Assembly (NCBI GenBank): GCA_005223045.1
Contig: NJBM01000003.1
Location: 62,001-126,000 of the forward strand
Origin: Planctomycetes bacterium B3_Pla
Lineage (GTDB): Bacteria > Planctomycetota > Phycisphaerae > Sedimentisphaerales > Anaerobacaceae
Reading direction: 5' to 3'
DNA length: 64,000 nt
Shown: positions 11,538-47,464 of the stretch, piece by piece
Layout: each line of letters begins with the position of its first letter
How positions within the stretch are numbered: position 1 is the stretch's first letter
Made by a program: the position numbers and the translations under genes
The notes under the pieces: model-generated
Seen by the model: only the letters and a program-made list of their open reading frames with translations
The model's database searches: none
What the model was told of the DNA's origin: nothing

Positions 11538-11883
11538 TCAAATCTCCTTCCCGGACTTTATCATGTTATGAAAAAGTAGGGTGGGGCTAGCCCCACCATT
11601 TCTAATCGGTGGGCCAATGCCGTAAGGCATCCCCCAGGGAGGCCCACTTTACAAAACTCTTATTTTCGTAGATAATAACCTGCAAAGCCTATGCCGGCAA
11701 GATACAAGGAATGAAAGTAGCGTGGGATCTGTCCTGAGTGCAGTTAAAGGGTCGCCCCGCCATTCTTTAAGCGGTGAGCCAAGGCCCGCCCGGAGGCTAT
11801 CCGGTATATGTCCTGAGCAGAGTCGAAGGAAACGCCACCAACGCATCAAGAAGGCCTGAAATGGGAAACGGCCCTAATGATTC
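11538..11883. other. Gene-free spacer with palindromic repeat copies
   Basis: No credible ORF. It holds the GTAGGGTGGGGC palindromic repeat (11576-11652), a more decayed relative around 11720-11800 (CGCCCCGCCATT, GGTGAGCCAAGGCCCGCCC), and at 11809-11829 the short motif GTCCTGAGCAGAGTCGAAGG, which is nearly the same as a stretch inside the second murD insertion (19631-19650). Confidence 0.6.
11576..11652. repeat. Dispersed palindromic repeat, copy 1
   Basis: It begins GTAGGGTGGGGCTAGCCCCA, continues through TAATCGGTGGGCCAATGCC and ends GGCCCACTTTAC. It shares its left half and TCGGTGGGCC centre with 13879-13932 but carries an extra ~23 nt before the right end. The inner parts GGGGCTAGCCCC and GGTGGGCC/GGCCCAC can form hairpins. 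Confidence 0.75.
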
Positions 11884-13379: not shown

Positions 13380-14021
13380 TTTTTCTCCTCATCAACTTGG
13401 CACTTGACCGCCAAAACTGGGGACAGCCAGTCTGCATTGGACATCTTAACTATTTTGCCTGTTTTTCTTATTGGTTTTTGATCTGCCGATTGGCAGTGAC
13501 CGCTCCCGGCCGCACTTGCGCATCTACTTACACACTCCTTACATAATAACAGGCGTTTGCGGCGGGTCAAATGTTGATGGTTTTTTCTGAATTTTTTGAA
13601 AAATGTAAAAAAATCTTTTTGGACAAGATTTACGGGATTTTCAGGGATTATTTGAAAAAAGTAAAAAGGCAAAAGGAAAAAGGGAAAATCTGTCCTGGGC
13701 GACGCCGAAGGAGGCAAAGGACGATGGAATATCCAATATTGAACAAGGAATGTCGAATGTTGAGGTGGGGATTTGTGACTTTGGGTGTCGAAAGGTTGAT
13801 TTTCGGGAGACCGCAAACGCGATATTGCTTCGCTGGGCAGTTTAGATTATTGTCTATGCCAAATCACAGATTGAAATCGTAGGGTGGGGCTGGCCCCACC
13901 ACTTTTGATCGGTGGGCCGAGGCCCACCCTACGAAGCCGGGCAACCACATAGGGTTGCCCCCTACAAATATGAAAGAAATTCCGCGGGGGGCGGTTGATT
14001 GTTGTTTTGGGAGTGAATTCG
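13380..14021. other. Repeat-rich spacer of ~640 bp
   Basis: No supported gene. From left to right it holds an A/T-rich stretch at 13580-13680 containing ACAAGATTTACGGGATTTTC, a heptamer-like tract at 13725-13766 (GGAATATCCAATATTGAAC, AAGGAATGTCGAATGTTG), and the palindromic GTAGGGTGGGGC repeat at 13879-13932. These look like decayed dispersed repeats rather than regulatory sites. The Shine-Dalgarno of the threonine dehydratase gene lies at its right edge. Confidence 0.55.
13879..13932. repeat. Dispersed palindromic repeat, copy 2
   Basis: The sequence runs from GTAGGGTGGGGCTGGCCCCA to GGTGGGCCGAGG and CCCACCCTAC. The outer ten bases (GTAGGGTGGG / CCCACCCTAC) are perfect inverted repeats, and an inner stem TGGCCCCACC / GGTGGGCCGA is nearly perfect, so the whole 54 bp can form a cruciform or RNA hairpin. 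It is related to 11576-11652. Confidence 0.8.
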
Positions 14022-17016: not shown

Positions 17017-18527
17017 AGACGCCAAATGAGAAAGAAACAGACAAACGAATATCGTCCTTGCTATCCGCAGCCGACCGCCAAGCTAATGAGCCAGACAAGC
17101 AATTCATTGACAAGCTGCAAGCCAAATCAACGGCCGAATTCTTAGCCTTTTCCACGGACGGCAATAGACATTCAAAAAGAACAATCCCCATTTCTATGTG
17201 GAGAATAATCATGAAAAGTAGAATAACAAAACCAGCAGCCGCAGCGATGATAGTTGTCGCAGTTCTGATCGGCGTACACTGGTTTGGTGCTGGTGCTCCT
17301 GCTTATGGAATTACTGAAGCTCTGGAGTTGTGGAACAATGCTGAGACAGTTCACATCAAAGGCTGGAAGTTTCTTCACACAGGCGACGATACGCAACTGG
17401 AGAAGTTCCCATTTGACATATGGTTTGACAAAAGAAACGGTCGCTTCAAACATTGGGGTCCTCTGTTCACGGCCTACAAGACCGAAACGCCAAGATATGG
17501 TCTGACTGTTTCAGATGGCCAATACATAATGGATAGTTTCGCCTATATAAATATGGATACTTCCGGCTATATAAATTCTGATGACAACTCAGTCCCTCCG
17601 TCGGTTAGGTTCACAAAACTCAGCCCTTTTCAGCAACGTCTTCGGATTCGCACAATGAATCCCTTTCCGGCGTATTTTGCCAATCTCAATCAAGTGAAAG
17701 GATTTACTAAAGTAGGACGAGAACAGATTAAGAATAAAACGGTCGATATATGGGAGGGCGTAAATATTACTGCAAGCCACTTGTTTTCTTCAAAGAAGAA
17801 GATATGGTTGTCACCGGAGACGGGCGAAATAGTCCGTATATTCACCTGGAGAAACGCTGGAAAGAATTCTGTACGATGGGTGGCCCTCAGCGATGCTGAC
17901 ACGATTGAGTACGATGTAGTGCCGCCTGCGAACTGCTTCAACACATATCCTCCGGCAGGCCATAAACAGACTAACACAAAAGAAACGGTCGTCGAACGAG
18001 AACTTGGACTTTTCCGCGGTGCCGACCCCAGGTTCCATAGTTGCGTTGGTTTTACGCTCAAAGACGGCAGTGTTATCTACGGCTGGCACGCCAACAACGA
18101 ACCAAATGAATCGCAAGCTCATCTTTTCACAGATCTGGAACCCGGAGGGCCGTTACCCAATCTGCCCGCAACGGTTGATGGGTTAAAACCATGGCCGGCG
18201 GAAGAAGGCATAACCCTCGCAGGCCGACACTTAACTTTCACCCGGAAGAATGGAAGATTCTACGAGTGGGGCATTTACGTGTCTGACGAAAAGGTGCCGG
18301 AACGTAATACGTTTGGGACTTACAGAATAATCTCAAAATGCAATTTTGCCAACATTGGTATTGGTAATGTTGGGCAAGAGTTGACTATCAATTCTGAGCA
18401 GGAATTTGATATCTGGGTTCGTGGCGCGATGGCTGAACTTAGCGACGACGGGAAAGCTCCGGAATCCGTAACCCACAAGAATGTTCTGCAATTAGCCGAG
18501 AAGCTTCGCAATTCGCTCAGCAAATAG
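17013..18527 (+). CDS. Membrane-anchored anti-sigma-like protein with large outer domain
   Basis: Start at 17013: the ATG overlaps the sigma-factor stop as ATGA and GGAGG lies 7 nt upstream. An ~70-residue charged, helical N-terminal segment (KETDKRISSLLSAADRQANE) would face the cytoplasm and hold the sigma factor; one transmembrane helix follows (AAAAMIVVAVLIGVHWFGAG). The ~415-residue outer part is beta-rich, with a LolA-like opening (ALELWNNAETVHIKGWKF, ETGEIVRIFTW). I infer release of the sigma factor in response to an envelope signal. No ZAS zinc motif is visible, so it is not a standard ZAS anti-sigma factor. Confidence 0.7.
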   Translation: MKTPNEKETDKRISSLLSAADRQANEPDKQFIDKLQAKSTAEFLAFSTDGNRHSKRTIPISMWRIIMKSRITKPAAAAMIVVAVLIGVHWFGAGAPAYGITEALELWNNAETVHIKGWKFLHTGDDTQLEKFPFDIWFDKRNGRFKHWGPLFTAYKTETPRYGLTVSDGQYIMDSFAYINMDTSGYINSDDNSVPPSVRFTKLSPFQQRLRIRTMNPFPAYFANLNQVKGFTKVGREQIKNKTVDIWEGVNITASHLFSSKKKIWLSPETGEIVRIFTWRNAGKNSVRWVALSDADTIEYDVVPPANCFNTYPPAGHKQTNTKETVVERELGLFRGADPRFHSCVGFTLKDGSVIYGWHANNEPNESQAHLFTDLEPGGPLPNLPATVDGLKPWPAEEGITLAGRHLTFTRKNGRFYEWGIYVSDEKVPERNTFGTYRIISKCNFANIGIGNVGQELTINSEQEFDIWVRGAMAELSDDGKAPESVTHKNVLQLAEKLRNSLSK

Positions 18528-18548
18528 CAAACTGCGAATGAGACCAAC

Positions 18549-18581
18549 AGGCCGGGCCTTATTTTGCTCGGCCTTATTATT
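18549..18581 (+). terminator. Intrinsic terminator after the anti-sigma-like gene
   Basis: Stem AGGCCGGGC (18549-18557) pairs with GCTCGGCCT (18566-18574), 9 bp with one G-U, followed by TATTATT. It lies in the gap to the convergent murD and slightly overlaps the murD stop. Confidence 0.75.
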
Positions 18582-20112
18582 GGCTGCTTGAACTGCTGAT
18601 GTCTCGCACGAGTTTCATAAACTCTTGGCCGCGTTGCTGGAAGTTGTCGAACATGTCGTAGCTTGCACAGGCGGGGCTTAGGAGAACGACATCGCCGCTT
18701 TCTGCGGTTGTGTAAGCCAACTGGACTGCTTCTGCCAGAGAATTGGCACGCTCTACTCTCGTATTGCGTATTGCGTGTTGCGTATTGCGAAGTTTGAGAT
18801 TGCTTCGCTTCGCTCGCAATGACATATCAGGATTAAGTATTGCATCGGCGATTTTTTCGGCCGTCTGGCCGATAAGGACGGCGGCTTTCGCCCTTTCAGC
18901 AATCCTTTTTCCGAGTTCGTCGAAGGGCAGCTTCTTGTCGTAGCCGCCGGCGATGATTATGACAGGTTCGTCAAAAGCATCCAATGCGGCGATTGCACTC
19001 TGCGGCGTGGTGGCTATCGAATCGTTGTACCAGCGGACGTCGTTTATCTCTTCAACGAATTCCAACCGATGCGGCAACGCTTTAAAACTCGGCAGGCAAG
19101 TTCTGATTCGGTCGTCATCAATGCCAAAACGGCAGGCGACGGCAATCGCCCCGGCAAGGTTTGAGAGATTTGCCCGGCCGGGCAAAGGGAAAGTCGTACG
19201 AACATCTTCACTTACATCGTCGGCTGAAAATTTGATACAAACTCTGCCTGCGTCTCCACTGTATTTCTCAAACCATTCGGCGCCAATTTCGTCTTCGGCA
19301 TTGAAAATGGAAACGGCGGGCGATTCTTCGTTCAGGTCCTGGAACTTGAAGATGCTTTCCTTTGCGACACAGTAATTGGCGAATGTCCCGTGGCGGTCGA
19401 GATGGTTGGGCGTGAGATTAGTCAGGAGAGCCACTTTGGGCGCTTTTTGGATTTGCGATAATTGCTCCAACTGGAAACTCGAAAGCTCCAGCACCACTAA
19501 ATCGTCAGGGCCGATTCGGTCTATCGCGGTCAATAACGGCTGATTGCCAATGTTACCGCTGAGCCAAACTTTTTCGTACTGCGTATCGCGTATTGCGTAT
19601 TGCGTGGTTTGAGATTGCTTCGCGGAGTTTATCCTGAGCGTAGTCGAAGGGCTCGCAATGACATTTTCGTATGTCGTATGTCGTATGTCGGATGTCGTGT
19701 TATTCAGCAGATGAGCGGTCAGGGCGGTGGTTGTGCTTTTGCCGTTGGCGCCCGTTACTCCGATTATCGTTGCCGGGCATAACTCGAAGAATATGTTCAT
19801 CTGAGACGTGACAATTCTGCCGGCGCGGCGGGCGATTTCGAGAAACTCGTTATCGCCGGGCACGGCGGGGTTGGCGACTACAATGTTGGCCTGCTCAAAA
19901 TCCGCCGGGTCGTGCCCGCCGAGATGAAACTCGATGCCATCAAATTCTTTGAGCTTTTCTACAGAGTCGGTCAGTTGTTGTGCGGGGGCAAGGTCTGTCA
20001 CTATCACTTTGGCCCCTGCTCTTGAGGCAAATTCGGCAACGTCAACTCCCCCGCCAAAACGCCCCAATCCCATAACCAAGACTTTTTTTCCGCTGAAATT
20101 TTCTCTCTTCAC
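18577..20112 (-). CDS. murD: UDP-N-acetylmuramoyl-L-alanine:D-glutamate ligase, with two in-frame repeat insertions
   Basis: MurD joins D-glutamate to UDP-MurNAc-L-Ala in the cytoplasm during peptidoglycan synthesis. Family signatures are clear: ATP loop GVTGANGKSTTT (residues 118-129), ELSSFQLEQL (209-218), LTNLTPNHLDRHG (230-242) and YNDSIATTP (362-370). The protein is 511 aa against the usual ~440-450 because of two low-complexity insertions, residues ~138-181 (containing SDIRHTTYENV and TTQYAIRDTQYEK) and ~429-454 (SLRAKRSNLKLRNTQHAIRN). Both are encoded by copies of a dispersed repeat and keep the frame open; the catalytic motifs are intact. The GTG start (20112) overlaps the hepT stop as GTGA, so its translation is probably coupled to hepT. 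Confidence 0.92.
   Translation of the reverse strand: MKRENFSGKKVLVMGLGRFGGGVDVAEFASRAGAKVIVTDLAPAQQLTDSVEKLKEFDGIEFHLGGHDPADFEQANIVVANPAVPGDNEFLEIARRAGRIVTSQMNIFFELCPATIIGVTGANGKSTTTALTAHLLNNTTSDIRHTTYENVIASPSTTLRINSAKQSQTTQYAIRDTQYEKVWLSGNIGNQPLLTAIDRIGPDDLVVLELSSFQLEQLSQIQKAPKVALLTNLTPNHLDRHGTFANYCVAKESIFKFQDLNEESPAVSIFNAEDEIGAEWFEKYSGDAGRVCIKFSADDVSEDVRTTFPLPGRANLSNLAGAIAVACRFGIDDDRIRTCLPSFKALPHRLEFVEEINDVRWYNDSIATTPQSAIAALDAFDEPVIIIAGGYDKKLPFDELGKRIAERAKAAVLIGQTAEKIADAILNPDMSLRAKRSNLKLRNTQHAIRNTRVERANSLAEAVQLAYTTAESGDVVLLSPACASYDMFDNFQQRGQEFMKLVRDISSSSSQ
18757..18832. repeat. In-frame repeat insertion near the murD 3' end
   Basis: On the plus strand this is a tandem tract of the heptamer GTATTGC (18761-18790) followed by GAGATTGCTTCGCTTCGCTC and GCAATGAC (core 18796-18823). 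It encodes about 25 residues of MurD not expected from the family. The core matches 19611-19662 and the two arms of the 44.0-kb element. Confidence 0.8.
19571..19702. repeat. In-frame repeat insertion in the murD 5' half
   Basis: This larger composite copy has GTATTGC-type heptamers (19576-19606), then GAGATTGCTTC (19611-19621), the segment TATCCTGAGCGTAGTCGAAG and GCAATGAC (ending 19662), then a second tandem heptamer tract GTATGTC (19669-19700). It encodes about 44 extra MurD residues between the ATP loop helix and the strand leading to SGNIGNQPL. Confidence 0.8.
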
Positions 20113-20456
20113 GATTCATCTTTGCCGAGCAGAGTCCGGACTTGTTCATATAATGAAGGCAGATCGTTAGTAACCACATCCCAAACTACGGGATGTTCGA
20201 CGATATCATATCCGTGAATCAAAATGTTGCGGAACGAGATAACACGTTTGTAATGACTGATTTGATTTGCCACGTCAGGTTCAGCCCTGGCTAACCGGTT
20301 CACGGCCTCACCTATAATCTCAAATTGACGTTCAATGCCGCTGCGCAGCAAGGCATCGCTTTTATAATCACTCAGTTCCTTGTCTTTGGAAAAATCGAGG
20401 ACGTGTTCAGAAGCTTGCCGGATGTCTTCCATGAGTTTCCTGGTTTCAAGCCGCAT
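20109..20456 (-). CDS. hepT: HepT-like HEPN ribonuclease toxin (DUF86)
   Basis: The product begins MRLETRKLMEDIRQASEHVL and carries the HEPN active-site motif RNILIHGY (Rx4H, near residue 85 of 115). Proteins of this family cut tRNA or mRNA as toxins and are neutralised by a partner MntA nucleotidyltransferase that adds AMP to a tyrosine; the Tyr directly after the RNILIHG motif fits that role. Start chosen at 20456 (GAGAGG 6 nt upstream) rather than 20489, giving an 11-nt overlap with mntA. Its stop overlaps the murD start. Together the pair forms a type VII toxin-antitoxin module. Confidence 0.85.
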   Translation of the reverse strand: MRLETRKLMEDIRQASEHVLDFSKDKELSDYKSDALLRSGIERQFEIIGEAVNRLARAEPDVANQISHYKRVISFRNILIHGYDIVEHPVVWDVVTNDLPSLYEQVRTLLGKDES

Positions 20457-20757
20457 ATAGCACCTCTCGGCTCTTATTGATGGATTCAAGAAAATAGGGA
20501 TTGTTTATAGCTCCCGGCATTACCAGATCAACATGCCTGTCAAAAAGTCTCTCGAAAGCTTCAAGCAGGCCAAAATAAGTATCGGCATATTCGCCCGGTT
20601 TTAGCGGCAGAAACTCAACCAGAAAATCTAAATCGCTCTGTTCGGCATGAAAATTCTTGTCGGTTAAGGCTGAACCAAAAAGTTCAAGTTGCCGCACTCG
20701 AAACTTTGCACATAGGTCCTTAATCGCTTCGCCGTTATCTTCGATTAGACTTATCAT
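20446..20757 (-). CDS. mntA: MntA-like minimal nucleotidyltransferase antitoxin
   Basis: The 103-aa protein has the minimal nucleotidyltransferase signature: GS followed by SDLDFLVEF, and a later acidic strand HVDLVMP supplying the third carboxylate. The gap between GS and DxD is two residues longer than the usual ten. ATG 20757 is preferred over a TTG at 20772. MntA proteins AMPylate HepT to silence it. The gene is the first of a minus-strand run mntA-hepT-murD with overlapping frames; pyrF lies 66 bp upstream in the same direction. Confidence 0.82.
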   Translation of the reverse strand: MISLIEDNGEAIKDLCAKFRVRQLELFGSALTDKNFHAEQSDLDFLVEFLPLKPGEYADTYFGLLEAFERLFDRHVDLVMPGAINNPYFLESINKSREVLYAA

Positions 20758-20838
20758 GGTGTTTCCCACCAAACGAGTGCTCTGAAAACAACACTATAGA
20801 AATCCTATTGGAAAACATCAAGAGAAATACGTCTTAAT

Positions 20839-43696: not shown

Positions 43697-44404
43697 ACAT
43701 TATTTCTCCACAGGACACCTTACGGTCCTGCATAAATGGCTACTATAATAATACTTATGATATCGGCTGTAAAGACGAACGCCAGTAATTAAAATCCCCC
43801 GCCAATCACCTCCGAAAACAGGAAATCCCAGTCTCTAAAGCTCTGTAGGGCGGGGCTTAGGCCGGCTTTCGCAGATTATTCATGATAAACAGACGCACGT
43901 TTGTTAATATATGTATTATGGATGCAGAACGAGACAGTTTTGACGCATCGGTTTGGAGAAGCTGTGTGAGATGATAGACACGAAAGCGTGACAGGTAGGG
44001 AGATATATAAGATACAGTGGGGCTGTTGAAAAAGATGAGATTGCTTCGTCGCTACGCTCCTCGCAATGACAAAAGCTCCATTTTTACGTCATTGCGAGCT
44101 AGGCCCCAAGGAGCCGATTCAAAGAATCACGCGGTAATCTCAGGCGTCACGGTGGGACTTTTTCAACAGCCCCACTGCCCCCGATTTGCCACGTCGATAT
44201 AGAACTCGAGATAGTCGTCGTTCTCATCGGACGAGACCTTCCACCGGATACCTTTAATTCTTTTACCGAACACCTTTAAAATCCCGGCGGGTCAGGCTTT
44301 CGTTTATTCCTGGAATCTGTTTTTGTGCGGCGCAGCGAAAGCTCACGGTTGAATTTGTTGATATTAGCAAGCAATGGGTTGATGCTGGCTGTGATTCCGC
44401 TGTT
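43697..44404. other. Spacer with a MITE-like inverted-repeat element
   Basis: 708 bp with no supported gene. The notable content is the 163-bp element at 44015-44177. A short partial copy of the GTAGGGCGGGGC-type repeat lies at 43845-43863. The remaining sequence (43700-43840 and 44180-44400) shows nothing I can interpret. Confidence 0.6.
44015..44177. mobile_element. Non-coding element with perfect 20-bp terminal inverted repeats (MITE-like)
   Basis: The ends CAGTGGGGCTGTTGAAAAAG (44015-44034) and CTTTTTCAACAGCCCCACTG (44158-44177) are exact reverse complements. Inside are two copies of the GTCATTGCGAG repeat core in opposite orientations: 44037-44070 (GAGATTGCTTC to GCAATGAC) and 44088-44143. 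No transposase and no clear target duplication are seen. Either a small transposable element or a large cruciform-forming repeat. Confidence 0.7.
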
Positions 44405-46909
44405 TTACCGCCTGAGTCGCTGTTCGAGTTCGATGCGTCTGGCAGTTTCCTGCCGCAGTTGCTTGCCGGTTGCGGTCAATTGTGTGACCTGCCTGGCGGT
44501 GAACTGCTCAAGCTGCACGTAATCTTCCCGCAGCCTGCTTGCCTCCCGCTTCTTCTGTGAGATTTCACTTTTGAACTGCTCGTTTGCCGCCGCCAGCTCG
44601 GCGATTTGTTGCTCGAGGAGCACTTCGGCCCGCTTATGCTCGCTTATCATCTGCTCGGCCCGGGTCCGGACCACAGATATCTCTTCGTCATGCCTGCTTT
44701 CATTCGCCTTTGAGTCGGCCTCGGCCTTCGCTATCATCTTCGCAGCCTTGGTCTCGGCTTTGGTTATTGACTTCTCAGCTCTGGCCTCGACCCTGGCTAT
44801 TGCCCGCTCAGCTTTAATCCTTACCGCTGTTAGCTCTTTGTCATACCTCTTTTCATTAGCCCTGGCCCGGGATTCGGCTTTCGATATCGCTGCGGCGGCA
44901 GCAGCCTCGGCACTTGCTATTGATTCGTCTGCTTCGGCTCTAATCGCGGCTAACGACTCGTTGTAACTTACCTGACTTGTCTCCAATTCGATCCTTACTG
45001 CGGCTATTGCCTCCTCAGCTTCAGCCCTTACCGCCGCCAACTCTTCACTATGATCCTCTTCCATCGCCTCGGCAGTCGCTATTGACTCGTCTGACCGGGC
45101 CTTGACGGCGGCAATCTTTTTATCGTACCTCTCTTTATTTGCCAAGGCGTCCGACCTGACCTTTGCTATTGCCCTATCAGCCTTGGCCTCGACCTTGCTC
45201 ATTGCCTTCTCAGCTTTGGCCTCAGCCCTGGCTATTGCCCGCTCGGCTTTGGCCCTTACTGCTGCTAACTCCTTGTCGTACCGTTTCTCCTTCGCCTCAA
45301 CATCGGATTTGGCTTTCGCTATCGCCTCGGCAGCCGCGGCCTCGGCTGTCGCTATTGACTCGTCTGCTTCGGCCCTCACCGCGGCTATCTCCTCTTCGTA
45401 ACTTGCCTCCGTTGCCTCCGATTCAGCCCTTACTGCCGCCAACTCGTCGCCGTGCCTCTCTTCCATCGCGTTGGCATCGGATTCGGCTTTCGATATCGCT
45501 GCTGCTATCGCAGCATCGGCTTTCGCTACCGACTCGTCCGCCTGGGCCTTGATTGCGGCAATCTCTTTCTCGTACTTCCCTTTCATTACCGAGGCGTCCG
45601 ACTCGGCTTTTGCTATTGCCTTGGCAGTCTTTGCCTCAGCCTTAGCCTCAGCCTTGCTGATTGCTTTCTTAGCTTTGGTCTCAGACCTGGTTATTGCCCG
45701 CTCGGCTTTGGCCCCCACTGCCGCCAACTCCTTGTCGTACCGTTTTTCCTTCGCCTCAACATCGGATTTGGCTTTCGATATCGCCTCGACTGCCGTGGCC
45801 TCGGCAGTAGCTATCGCTTCATCCGCTTCAGCCCTCACCGCGGCTATCGCCTCATCGTAATTTGCTTGCTTTGCTTCAAATTCGGCCCTGACCTCAGCTA
45901 TTGCCACCTCGTCTGTCTGGGCCTTGACGGCGGCAATCTCTTTATCGTACCACTCTTTCATTACCGAGACGTCTAACTCGGCCTTTGTTATTGCATCTTC
46001 AGCTTCAGCCCTTAGCGCAGCCAACTCTCCGCCGCACTTCATTTCCCTCGCCTCGGCATCGGATTCGGCCTTTGTTATCGCCTCGGCAGCAGCGGACTCA
46101 GCACTCGCTACCGCCTCGACTGCCTGGACCTTGAGGGCGGCAATCTCTTTATCATACTTCCTTTTCATTGCCGAAACGTCCGACTCGGCTTTTGCTATTG
46201 ACTTGTCTACCTGAACCCTCACGGCGGCTATCGTCTCTTTGTAACTTGCTTCCTTTGCCTCCGATTCAGCCCTGATCTCAGCCATTGCCGCCTCAGCTTC
46301 AGCCCTTACCGCCGCTAATTCTTCGTCGTATCTCTCCTCACTCGCCTCAGCCTGGGATTCAGCTTTCGCTATCGCCTCGGCAGCCGCAGCCCCGGTCTTC
46401 GCTGCTGCCTCGTCTGCCTGAGCCTTTTGCTCGGTGAGCGCCTTGTCGAATCCATCGGCGGCGGCTGCAAACTCATCCGCCTGCTGTTCGATGTACTGAT
46501 CGAGCTTACTGACGTGCTCTTGCAGCTTGTTTTCTGTCCGGGCTTGTGCAGCGACAACAACTACGAGCCCGACGATTTGTCCTTCTTTGTCCCTTGCCGC
46601 GGTCATTCTGGTCTGCGAGCAGAACACTGTTCCGTCACTTCGCACACGATCTACCGGACCGGCGAGCTGACCTCTTCGTATGGCTTCTTCGATGAAATCG
46701 CACACGAAAGTATTCATCTGTTCTTCGGTGTGAAACGCACTGACATGTTTGCCTATCAGCTCATCGGGGGTGTCGTACCCATGTGTCGCAGCCCACGCAA
46801 GATTAGCGAAGCGGAGGATTCCGCCTCCGTCAATCACGACAATTCCGTCAGCAGCCTGATTGGACGTCGCCGTTATCTGCTGTAGTATCTGCTCGATTTG
46901 CTTATTCAT
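44405..46909 (-). CDS. PAS-domain protein with very long repetitive coiled coil
   Basis: The start is uncertain: 46909 gives MNKQIEQILQQITATSNQAA, the natural beginning of a PAS region; in-frame ATGs at 46924 and 46975 would add residues that look like translated repeat. Residues ~15-125 form one PAS domain (DGIVVIDGGGILRFANLAWA, GKHVSAFHTEEQM, RSDGTVFCSQTRMTA). The remaining ~700 residues are Ala/Glu/Lys-rich coiled coil made of a degenerate super-repeat of ~145-153 residues, present nearly three times (marker KRYDKELAAV). No kinase, GGDEF or methyl-accepting output domain follows. It probably acts as a long structural or sensory rod; function unknown. Confidence 0.7.
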   Translation of the reverse strand: MNKQIEQILQQITATSNQAADGIVVIDGGGILRFANLAWAATHGYDTPDELIGKHVSAFHTEEQMNTFVCDFIEEAIRRGQLAGPVDRVRSDGTVFCSQTRMTAARDKEGQIVGLVVVVAAQARTENKLQEHVSKLDQYIEQQADEFAAAADGFDKALTEQKAQADEAAAKTGAAAAEAIAKAESQAEASEERYDEELAAVRAEAEAAMAEIRAESEAKEASYKETIAAVRVQVDKSIAKAESDVSAMKRKYDKEIAALKVQAVEAVASAESAAAEAITKAESDAEAREMKCGGELAALRAEAEDAITKAELDVSVMKEWYDKEIAAVKAQTDEVAIAEVRAEFEAKQANYDEAIAAVRAEADEAIATAEATAVEAISKAKSDVEAKEKRYDKELAAVGAKAERAITRSETKAKKAISKAEAKAEAKTAKAIAKAESDASVMKGKYEKEIAAIKAQADESVAKADAAIAAAISKAESDANAMEERHGDELAAVRAESEATEASYEEEIAAVRAEADESIATAEAAAAEAIAKAKSDVEAKEKRYDKELAAVRAKAERAIARAEAKAEKAMSKVEAKADRAIAKVRSDALANKERYDKKIAAVKARSDESIATAEAMEEDHSEELAAVRAEAEEAIAAVRIELETSQVSYNESLAAIRAEADESIASAEAAAAAAISKAESRARANEKRYDKELTAVRIKAERAIARVEARAEKSITKAETKAAKMIAKAEADSKANESRHDEEISVVRTRAEQMISEHKRAEVLLEQQIAELAAANEQFKSEISQKKREASRLREDYVQLEQFTARQVTQLTATGKQLRQETARRIELEQRLRR

Positions 46910-47464
46910 ACCCACCAATGTCATCCGTAGGGTCGCTTCAGAGAAAGCAAACGCTACCTTCACCACCTGGTCCATCCCGAAGGCTTCTCAGCGGAGATAT
47001 ATCCTCTAATGGCCTATTCGTGTGCAACGAAATTATTATAACAACCTGCAGGCCGGAGATCAAGATTCCAGTGGCTACTATACAGCGATTGAGCCTGGTG
47101 TGTAAAGAAGTCTTTGAAATGGGCACTGTAGGGCTGTTGAAAAAGTCCCCTTATTCTGTTATTTATATTATCCGTAGCGGGGGCCAACTTCATGCACGGC
47201 CAAATCGAGTGACGCCTTACTTATTTTCGGCGCGGTTGTATTGTGGAGATTAAGGATTTATAAACTCCCGGGTTAAAACTTTTCAGTCTTGAGTTCACAA
47301 ACAGATTGCTTTGAGCTAAAATTGCCGTGAGGTAGCGTGTCACGGGCGACTAGCACTACGGTATTATTAAGACTTGAAGCTTGCAAGAGTGTTTTAGTGA
47401 AGTGTATATTGGAAATCCCGGATGATATTACGTTTCTTATATAGTGATTAGAATGGAGGTAACA
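46910..47464. other. Spacer between divergent PAS gene and oxidoreductase operon
   Basis: No supported gene. It contains a lone end of the 44-kb element at 47124-47150. The remainder, 47150-47450, is A/T-richer and would hold the promoter of the oxidoreductase operon; I see no convincing -35/-10 pair. Confidence 0.45.
47124..47150. repeat. Solitary end of the inverted-repeat element
   Basis: AGGGCTGTTGAAAAAGTCCC (47129-47148) matches the reverse complement of the right end of the 44.0-kb element (GGGGCTGTTGAAAAAGTCCC) except for one base. No second end is found nearby. Confidence 0.65.

Follow-up and report, generated by a model that had tools for sequence, protein, structure and literature searches.

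The murD gene of Planctomycetes bacterium B3_Pla is longer than expected, and its surplus DNA consists of repeats, which raises the question of how repeat DNA came to lie, twice and in frame, within the gene of an essential cell-wall enzyme. We analysed this gene within its window (the whole stretch of 64,000 nt), across its own genome and in genomes of the same family.

MurD carries two in-frame repeat inserts in surface loops

The assignment of the gene is secure: the protein scores 354 bits against TIGR01087 (curated cut-off 211.95), and its AlphaFold2 model, with a mean pLDDT of 83, has a MurD fold that aligns with 7ti7 (Z 36.1, rmsd 2.6 over 411 residues). Within this model, pLDDT falls below 50 at residues 142-176 and 430-448, which are the two inserts, and the sole further low-pLDDT stretch is formed by residues 485-489. 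Mapped onto the predicted fold, the insert peptides thus lie in loops that are modelled with no confident structure. Site A falls between the post-P-loop helix and the strand of WLSGNIG, and site B between the helix at 418-426 and the strand at 452-455. All residues invariant across 25 MurD homologues are kept, and all lie outside both loops. In agreement with the earlier note, which had the inserts keep the frame and spare the catalytic motifs, MurD with its repeats is apparently a functional enzyme in which, judging from the sequence, the repeats are apparently translated. That note put the excess at about 70 residues; the excess is real but smaller, about 60 aa, because the shortest loops in the family have 8 and 10 residues and many relatives are 450-460 residues long.

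Table 1 Layout of murD and of the repeats inside it. Positions are those of the window.
Feature	Position	Strand	Extent or reading	Basis or remark
murD, UDP-N-acetylmuramoyl-L-alanine--D-glutamate ligase	18577..20112	(-)	511 aa	TIGR01087, AlphaFold2 model
Site A insert	19567..19704	(-)	residues 137-182	alignment of 70 family MurDs and pLDDT
GTATGTC heptamers of site A (coding strand GACATAC)	19669..19696	(-)	DIRHTTY	5' of palindrome on coding strand
REP-like palindrome of site A	19611..19662	(-)	VIASPSTTLRINSAKQS	inner module 24 nt longer, contains CCCTTCGACTACGCTCAGGATAAACTC
GTATTGC-type heptamers of site A (coding strand GCAATAC)	19576..19603	(-)		3' of palindrome on coding strand
Site B insert	18742..18840	(-)	residues 425-457, C-terminal domain	alignment and pLDDT
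REP-like palindrome of site B	18796..18823	(-)	MSLRAKRSNL	
GTATTGC heptamers of site B	18761..18788	(-)	LRNTQHAIRNTR	coding strand read

The extra residues coincide with the repeats (Table 1), and the DNA at both sites is as first described: GTATTGC heptamers together with a core GAGATTGCTTCGC...GCTCGCAATGAC, which on the coding strand is GTCATTGCGA..GCAATCTC. Over their initial 50 nt the two copies share 90% identity, and GTATTGCGTATTGCG, allowing up to 2 mismatches, occurs 6 times within the window against 0.19 expected. What had been taken for one composite element is, at each site, two repeat classes joined, a REP-like palindrome and an array of tandem heptamers. Site A additionally holds a GTATGTC array and an extra inner palindrome module, both previously overlooked. 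The sequence of this module, CCTTCGACTACGCTCAGGATAAAC, had no second copy in the own-genome stretches examined, and we therefore rejected it as a dispersed genomic repeat.

Next to murD, a HepT-like RNase and nucleotidyltransferase pair (PF01934, PF01909; window 20112-20772) lies between murD and a pyrF-like gene and is, by its domains, a candidate HepT/MntA-type toxin-antitoxin system.

REP-like palindromes are dispersed, and almost all other copies are intergenic

The core is not private to murD, as an insertion of a dispersed repeat requires. In the 5.98 Mb of its own genome the pattern GTCATTGCGA..GCAATC has 105 copies and the 13-mer GAGATTGCTTCGC has 18, the reversed-pattern control giving 0 in each case, and the REP pattern is present in 80 of 89 family genomes. 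Genome counts come from pattern searches and retrieved stretches. Among the roughly 104 own-genome units classified as coding or intergenic, by simple ORF rules and not a gene finder, nearly all are intergenic, and only the two in murD lie well within a gene recognised by Pfam; the other long ORF with internal REP units (L004) has no Pfam family. The copies share a limited set of inner sequences. Of 103 copies, most begin with the tag TGTC and some with CGTC, and ATTGC comes next. Neighbouring units form 37 inverted pairs, 22 with tags facing and 15 with tails facing; the murD units are singletons.

The 28-nt murD unit has a predicted fold of -2.7 kcal/mol with an outer stem of 5 bp, a value that shuffled sequences reach as well, and a stable hairpin was rejected for the murD units; among the four sequences folded, a good fold was obtained for only two, an intergenic dimer and the GCGATTCGCAGAATCGC variant. 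Rfam covariance models gave no match up to E 1 in window 18000-20800, by which a structured RNA at the locus was rejected as well. A RAYT was considered as mobiliser and dismissed: the genome has four matches to the Y1 transposase family (PF01797), none with REP units on both flanks. No transposase or other machinery linked to either REP units or heptamers was found.

Other repeats were seen in the window. A 20-nt inverted repeat (CAGTGGGGCTGTTGAAAAAG / CTTTTTCAACAGCCCCACTG) surrounds two REP-like units in the intergenic stretch 44014-44182, a nested, mobile-looking arrangement. A palindromic repeat TAGGGTGGGGC..GCCCCACC occurs in two copies, 85% identical, at 11569-11621 and 13872-13924, and the DNA of an 856-aa ORF with an N-terminal PAS domain (44408-46975) repeats itself internally in long stretches of 118-300 nt that are 60-79% identical.

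Heptamer arrays in coding sequence are biased to one strand

The 14-mer GTATTGCGTATTGC (two GTATTGC units) has 65 copies genome-wide, again with 0 for the reversed pattern. The 21-mer of three units, marking (GCAATAC)n arrays, was found in 25 of the 89 family genomes, and among 392 sampled Planctomycetota in the own genome only. In MurD loci, which were not selected for repeats, TRF reported 64 period-7 arrays against 3.4 per shuffle, an over-representation; 40 of the 64 contain ACG or CGT, compared with an expected 19%. Family heptamers are mostly ACGNNNN, chiefly ACGCAAT.

Judged from its sequence, the heptamer array yields one set of seven codons whichever frame is used, and neither strand contains a stop. 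One strand gives the hydrophilic RNTQYAI, the opposite one the hydrophobic VLRIAYC. Relatives have 36 perfect arrays deep within long ORFs, and in 35 of these the coding strand carries GCAATAC (P = 1e-9); the sole exception is in a protein that weakly matches a family of membrane mannosyltransferases. Among intergenic arrays of the own genome the split is 28 vs 31. Because both strands are stop-free in every frame, this bias points to the peptide.

Hosts of translated heptamers recognised by Pfam include MurE, MurF, ArgG, HypF, DnaE, DXS, LpxK and glycosyltransferases, and the own-genome hosts outside murD include MurF, TruA and UvrC (MurE and MurF were named from Mur ligase domains and motifs read by eye). 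About 13 of 37 deep-coding arrays lie in Mur ligases, which make up an estimated 0.2% or so of coding DNA; even though sites shared between genera are not independent, the five distinct Mur sites still exceed expectation. MurE arrays were found in 7 genomes of 5 genera, and those at the MurE C-terminus share their last 29 nt exactly across 4 genera, with flanks at 67-82%.

Further arrangements of heptamers were noted. Many arrays of the own genome abut ATTGGCTTTGTTTTTTCAA, another dispersed repeat (L054, L058, L063, L064, L065, L068, L141, L151, L157, L159), and inverted, hairpin-capable heptamer pairs occur there too (L051, L076, L154). In a glycosyltransferase of two genera (L198, L218) the insert sits at an identical site (AGxLGRFAAHS..RIVHTIHGLAFH). 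At four loci (L194, L206, L150, L152) the heptamer-coded peptide directly precedes a prepilin cleavage motif, e.g. GFTLTEL, so placed that repeats may be a source of leader peptides there.

Both murD loops vary widely among relatives

We aligned 70 family MurDs; most of the genomes are MAGs, those of one genus are not independent, and the relatives identified by name are MAGs with the labels Phycisphaerae, Sedimentisphaerales or Planctomycetota. Both loops proved hypervariable. Relatives do not carry unrelated sequence of one length here, which would have spoken against insertion: site A measures 8-64 aa, with modes at 8 and 14-15, and site B 10-42 aa. Going from 8 to 15 residues at site A adds 7, the coding length of three heptamers. 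Some of the minimal sites have ACGNNNNACG, and several genomes have other heptamers at the same position of site A (ACGACAT, ACGAGTC, ACGAGCG).

REP units occupy site A in 6 of the 70 relatives and site B in about 14, one of which (G063) is probably labelled for a chance 8-mer. Their strand is constant in carriers and so, at each site, is their frame, which gives VIA..AKQSQ at site A and SLR..SNL at site B. On a quick tree built without the loop columns, in which many forks are weak, parsimony for REP presence gave 6 changes at A and about 12 at B; the whole insert is missing in close relatives (e.g. G001, G028, G014), and G098 has a third composite at the MurD N-terminus. With 12 strict REP units, every one of them on the coding strand, murD exceeds the 0.75 that REP counts in these genomes would predict, an enrichment in which related, non-independent genomes are counted. 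Searching the 89 genomes for the REP-heptamer junction, GAAGCAATCTCAAANNACGCAATACG with at most 2 mismatches, gave 13 matches. Eleven of these fall in the murD genes of 9 genomes, one of them at the N-terminus and the others at sites A and B. In the own genome, no heptamer array inspected beyond murD lies next to a REP unit.

Insert DNA is more alike between several genera than the genes around it

REP-unit DNA in murD has an identity of 92-100% between several genera, against 49-57% at third codon positions. Insert A of the own genome (G000) and that of G085 match at 97 of 103 positions, with the gene body at 74% and third positions at 52%; at site B, G000 and G005 match in 69 of 75, with flanks at 66%. 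Several other genome pairs show a similar contrast, and G095 and G098 have diverged inserts (63/77 and 45/55). Near-identical insert DNA in genes whose third positions match about half the time is not explained by neutral vertical descent. Nor is recent transfer of murD the reason, since the flanks of the inserts are not clearly raised in identity (A, 0.79 vs a gene-body value of 0.74 for G000/G085; B, 0.66 vs 0.73 for G000/G005), and horizontal transfer of the entire gene was rejected on this ground. Together with the 29-nt identity in MurE, this conservation of insert DNA beyond that of the gene implies that the repeats are younger than their sites, or were renewed.

Origin of the inserts

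We consider it probable that selfish repeats have inserted repeatedly, and been renewed, at tolerant loops of Mur ligases, filtered by selection on the protein. Family genomes would carry two selfish short repeats, the REP-like palindromes (TGTCATTGCGA...GCAATCTC) and the tandem heptamers, and both would have entered two length-tolerant surface loops of murD in frame, to be translated as disordered loops. Inserts would have been gained, renewed and lost many times at the same two sites in many genera, in place of one old event. Native ACGNNNNACG sequences may have seeded the heptamer arrays, which slippage would lengthen three units (21 bp) at a time so that the frame is kept; the REP unit may have been copied in from repeats elsewhere, or passed by short-tract conversion from one murD loop or murD gene to another. 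Purifying selection on the protein would then remove insertions whose strand, frame or position is unsuitable, and the enzyme need not gain anything from those that stay. Random insertion followed by selection does not account for one observation, the near-confinement of the REP-heptamer junction to murD.

Three further proposals we each rate below even chances. Mur ligase genes could be specific recurrent targets, with the REP-heptamer cassette circulating nearly only among murD loops of the family through a loop-recognising copying that also puts heptamers into the corresponding MurE loop; we put this forward tentatively. Short-tract gene conversion would carry the composite from one loop to the other, and from the murD of one species to that of another, by recombination anchored in the heptamers. 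The murD-bound junction speaks for it, but insert flanks are not clearly raised in identity, and we hold it to be rather unlikely. A mobile palindrome of Rickettsia, REP or MITE type, moved by a transposase in trans and preferring a target beside heptamers or a CGTC-like sequence in murD, would fit the more than 100 dispersed copies with their inverted dimers, the enrichment of REP units in murD and in-frame intragenic copies like those of Rickettsia RPE-4 and RPE-6 (PMC3733652). It seems to us unlikely, given that no associated transposase was found, that the own-genome heptamer arrays inspected outside murD never adjoin a REP unit and that no clear target-site duplication was established.

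That all carriers have the same strand and frame at a given site is also what a single ancestral insertion per murD loop would give, if it was inherited vertically, lost many times and kept for a function such as tuning activity or binding a partner. The identical junction at the two sites agrees with this, and NeuO offers a precedent in which a translated heptanucleotide region is reported to raise activity (PMC13001214). Yet insert DNA that is nearly letter-perfect across genes with half-matching third positions, the absence of the whole insert from close relatives and the lack of confident structure in the insert peptides all weigh against it, and we regard it as distinctly improbable. An assembly artefact or a pseudogene is scarcely credible: most of the genomes are metagenome assembled, and the own genome is listed at 5.8% contamination, but both sites also carry inserts in assemblies made independently by different projects, the aligned relatives have frames that run open through the two sites, and the residues invariant in 25 homologues are kept.

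Relation to known repeats

Several species are known to have intragenic REPs, even two insertions in one gene, and RPE-4 and RPE-6 themselves belong to the CGTC REPs (PMC3733652); gmk is a reviewed precedent for a palindromic element within a Rickettsia gene (PMC2229807). The comparison with Rickettsia palindromic elements made in the earlier note holds in part. As there, dispersed palindromes lie in frame in tolerated loops of a conserved gene, are predicted to be translated and presumably leave the enzyme active. Unlike those elements, which enter many genes, the other REP copies here are nearly all intergenic, the inserts concern one gene at two fixed sites in many genera, and the units are shorter (28-52 nt) with heptamer arrays attached.

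With the CGTC-tagged REP superfamily (Di Nocera 2013, PMC3733652), marked by an unpaired CGTC, TGTC or CCTC tag at one end, the palindromes share a TGTC/CGTC start with AT first in the stem, inverted dimers (the murD units being singletons) and the want of a dedicated transposase. They differ from it in their tail, CTC in place of CCA, and the murD units have a 5-bp outer stem and no stable fold where the superfamily has a stem of 8-9 bp and a loop of 4-5 nt. Unlike RAYT-mobilised REPs, they flank no Y1 transposase gene on both sides.

Heptamer repeats of Beggiatoaceae (TAACTGA), Xanthomonas and Nostoc are likewise tandem 7-mers dispersed over the genome, of different units, and are mostly intergenic (PMC4679880, PMC4692102). 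TAACTGA repeats within ORFs are mostly peripheral, whereas the perfect arrays of this family sit far inside the genes of conserved enzymes and strongly favour one strand. The neuO array (AAGACTC) is a translated heptanucleotide that is functional when its unit number is a multiple of three (PMC13001214). The murD arrays resemble it in being in frame and predicted to be translated; neuO has its array in the 5' region of an accessory phase-variable gene, whereas those of murD are short and occupy internal loops of an essential one. Searches found nothing relevant on the core sequence or on Sedimentisphaerales repeats, and in the literature, covered in part, we found no report of recurrence at fixed Mur-ligase loops or of a REP-heptamer composite.

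Implications

In this family MurD, an essential enzyme of the cell wall, and other Mur ligases apparently have repeat DNA as part of their coding sequence. This would extend translated repeats in essential genes from Rickettsia palindromic elements and intragenic REPs to an uncultured lineage of Planctomycetota. As the inserts recur at the same loops in many genera, the gain, renewal and loss of repeat-coded protein segments become measurable, and since the heptamer is stop-free on both strands, with identical codons in every frame, the choice of strand cleanly tests selection at the protein level. Odd residues in MAG proteins, such as RNTQYAIR, SLRAKRSN and VIASEAKQS, are accordingly to be read as translated repeats and not as domains.
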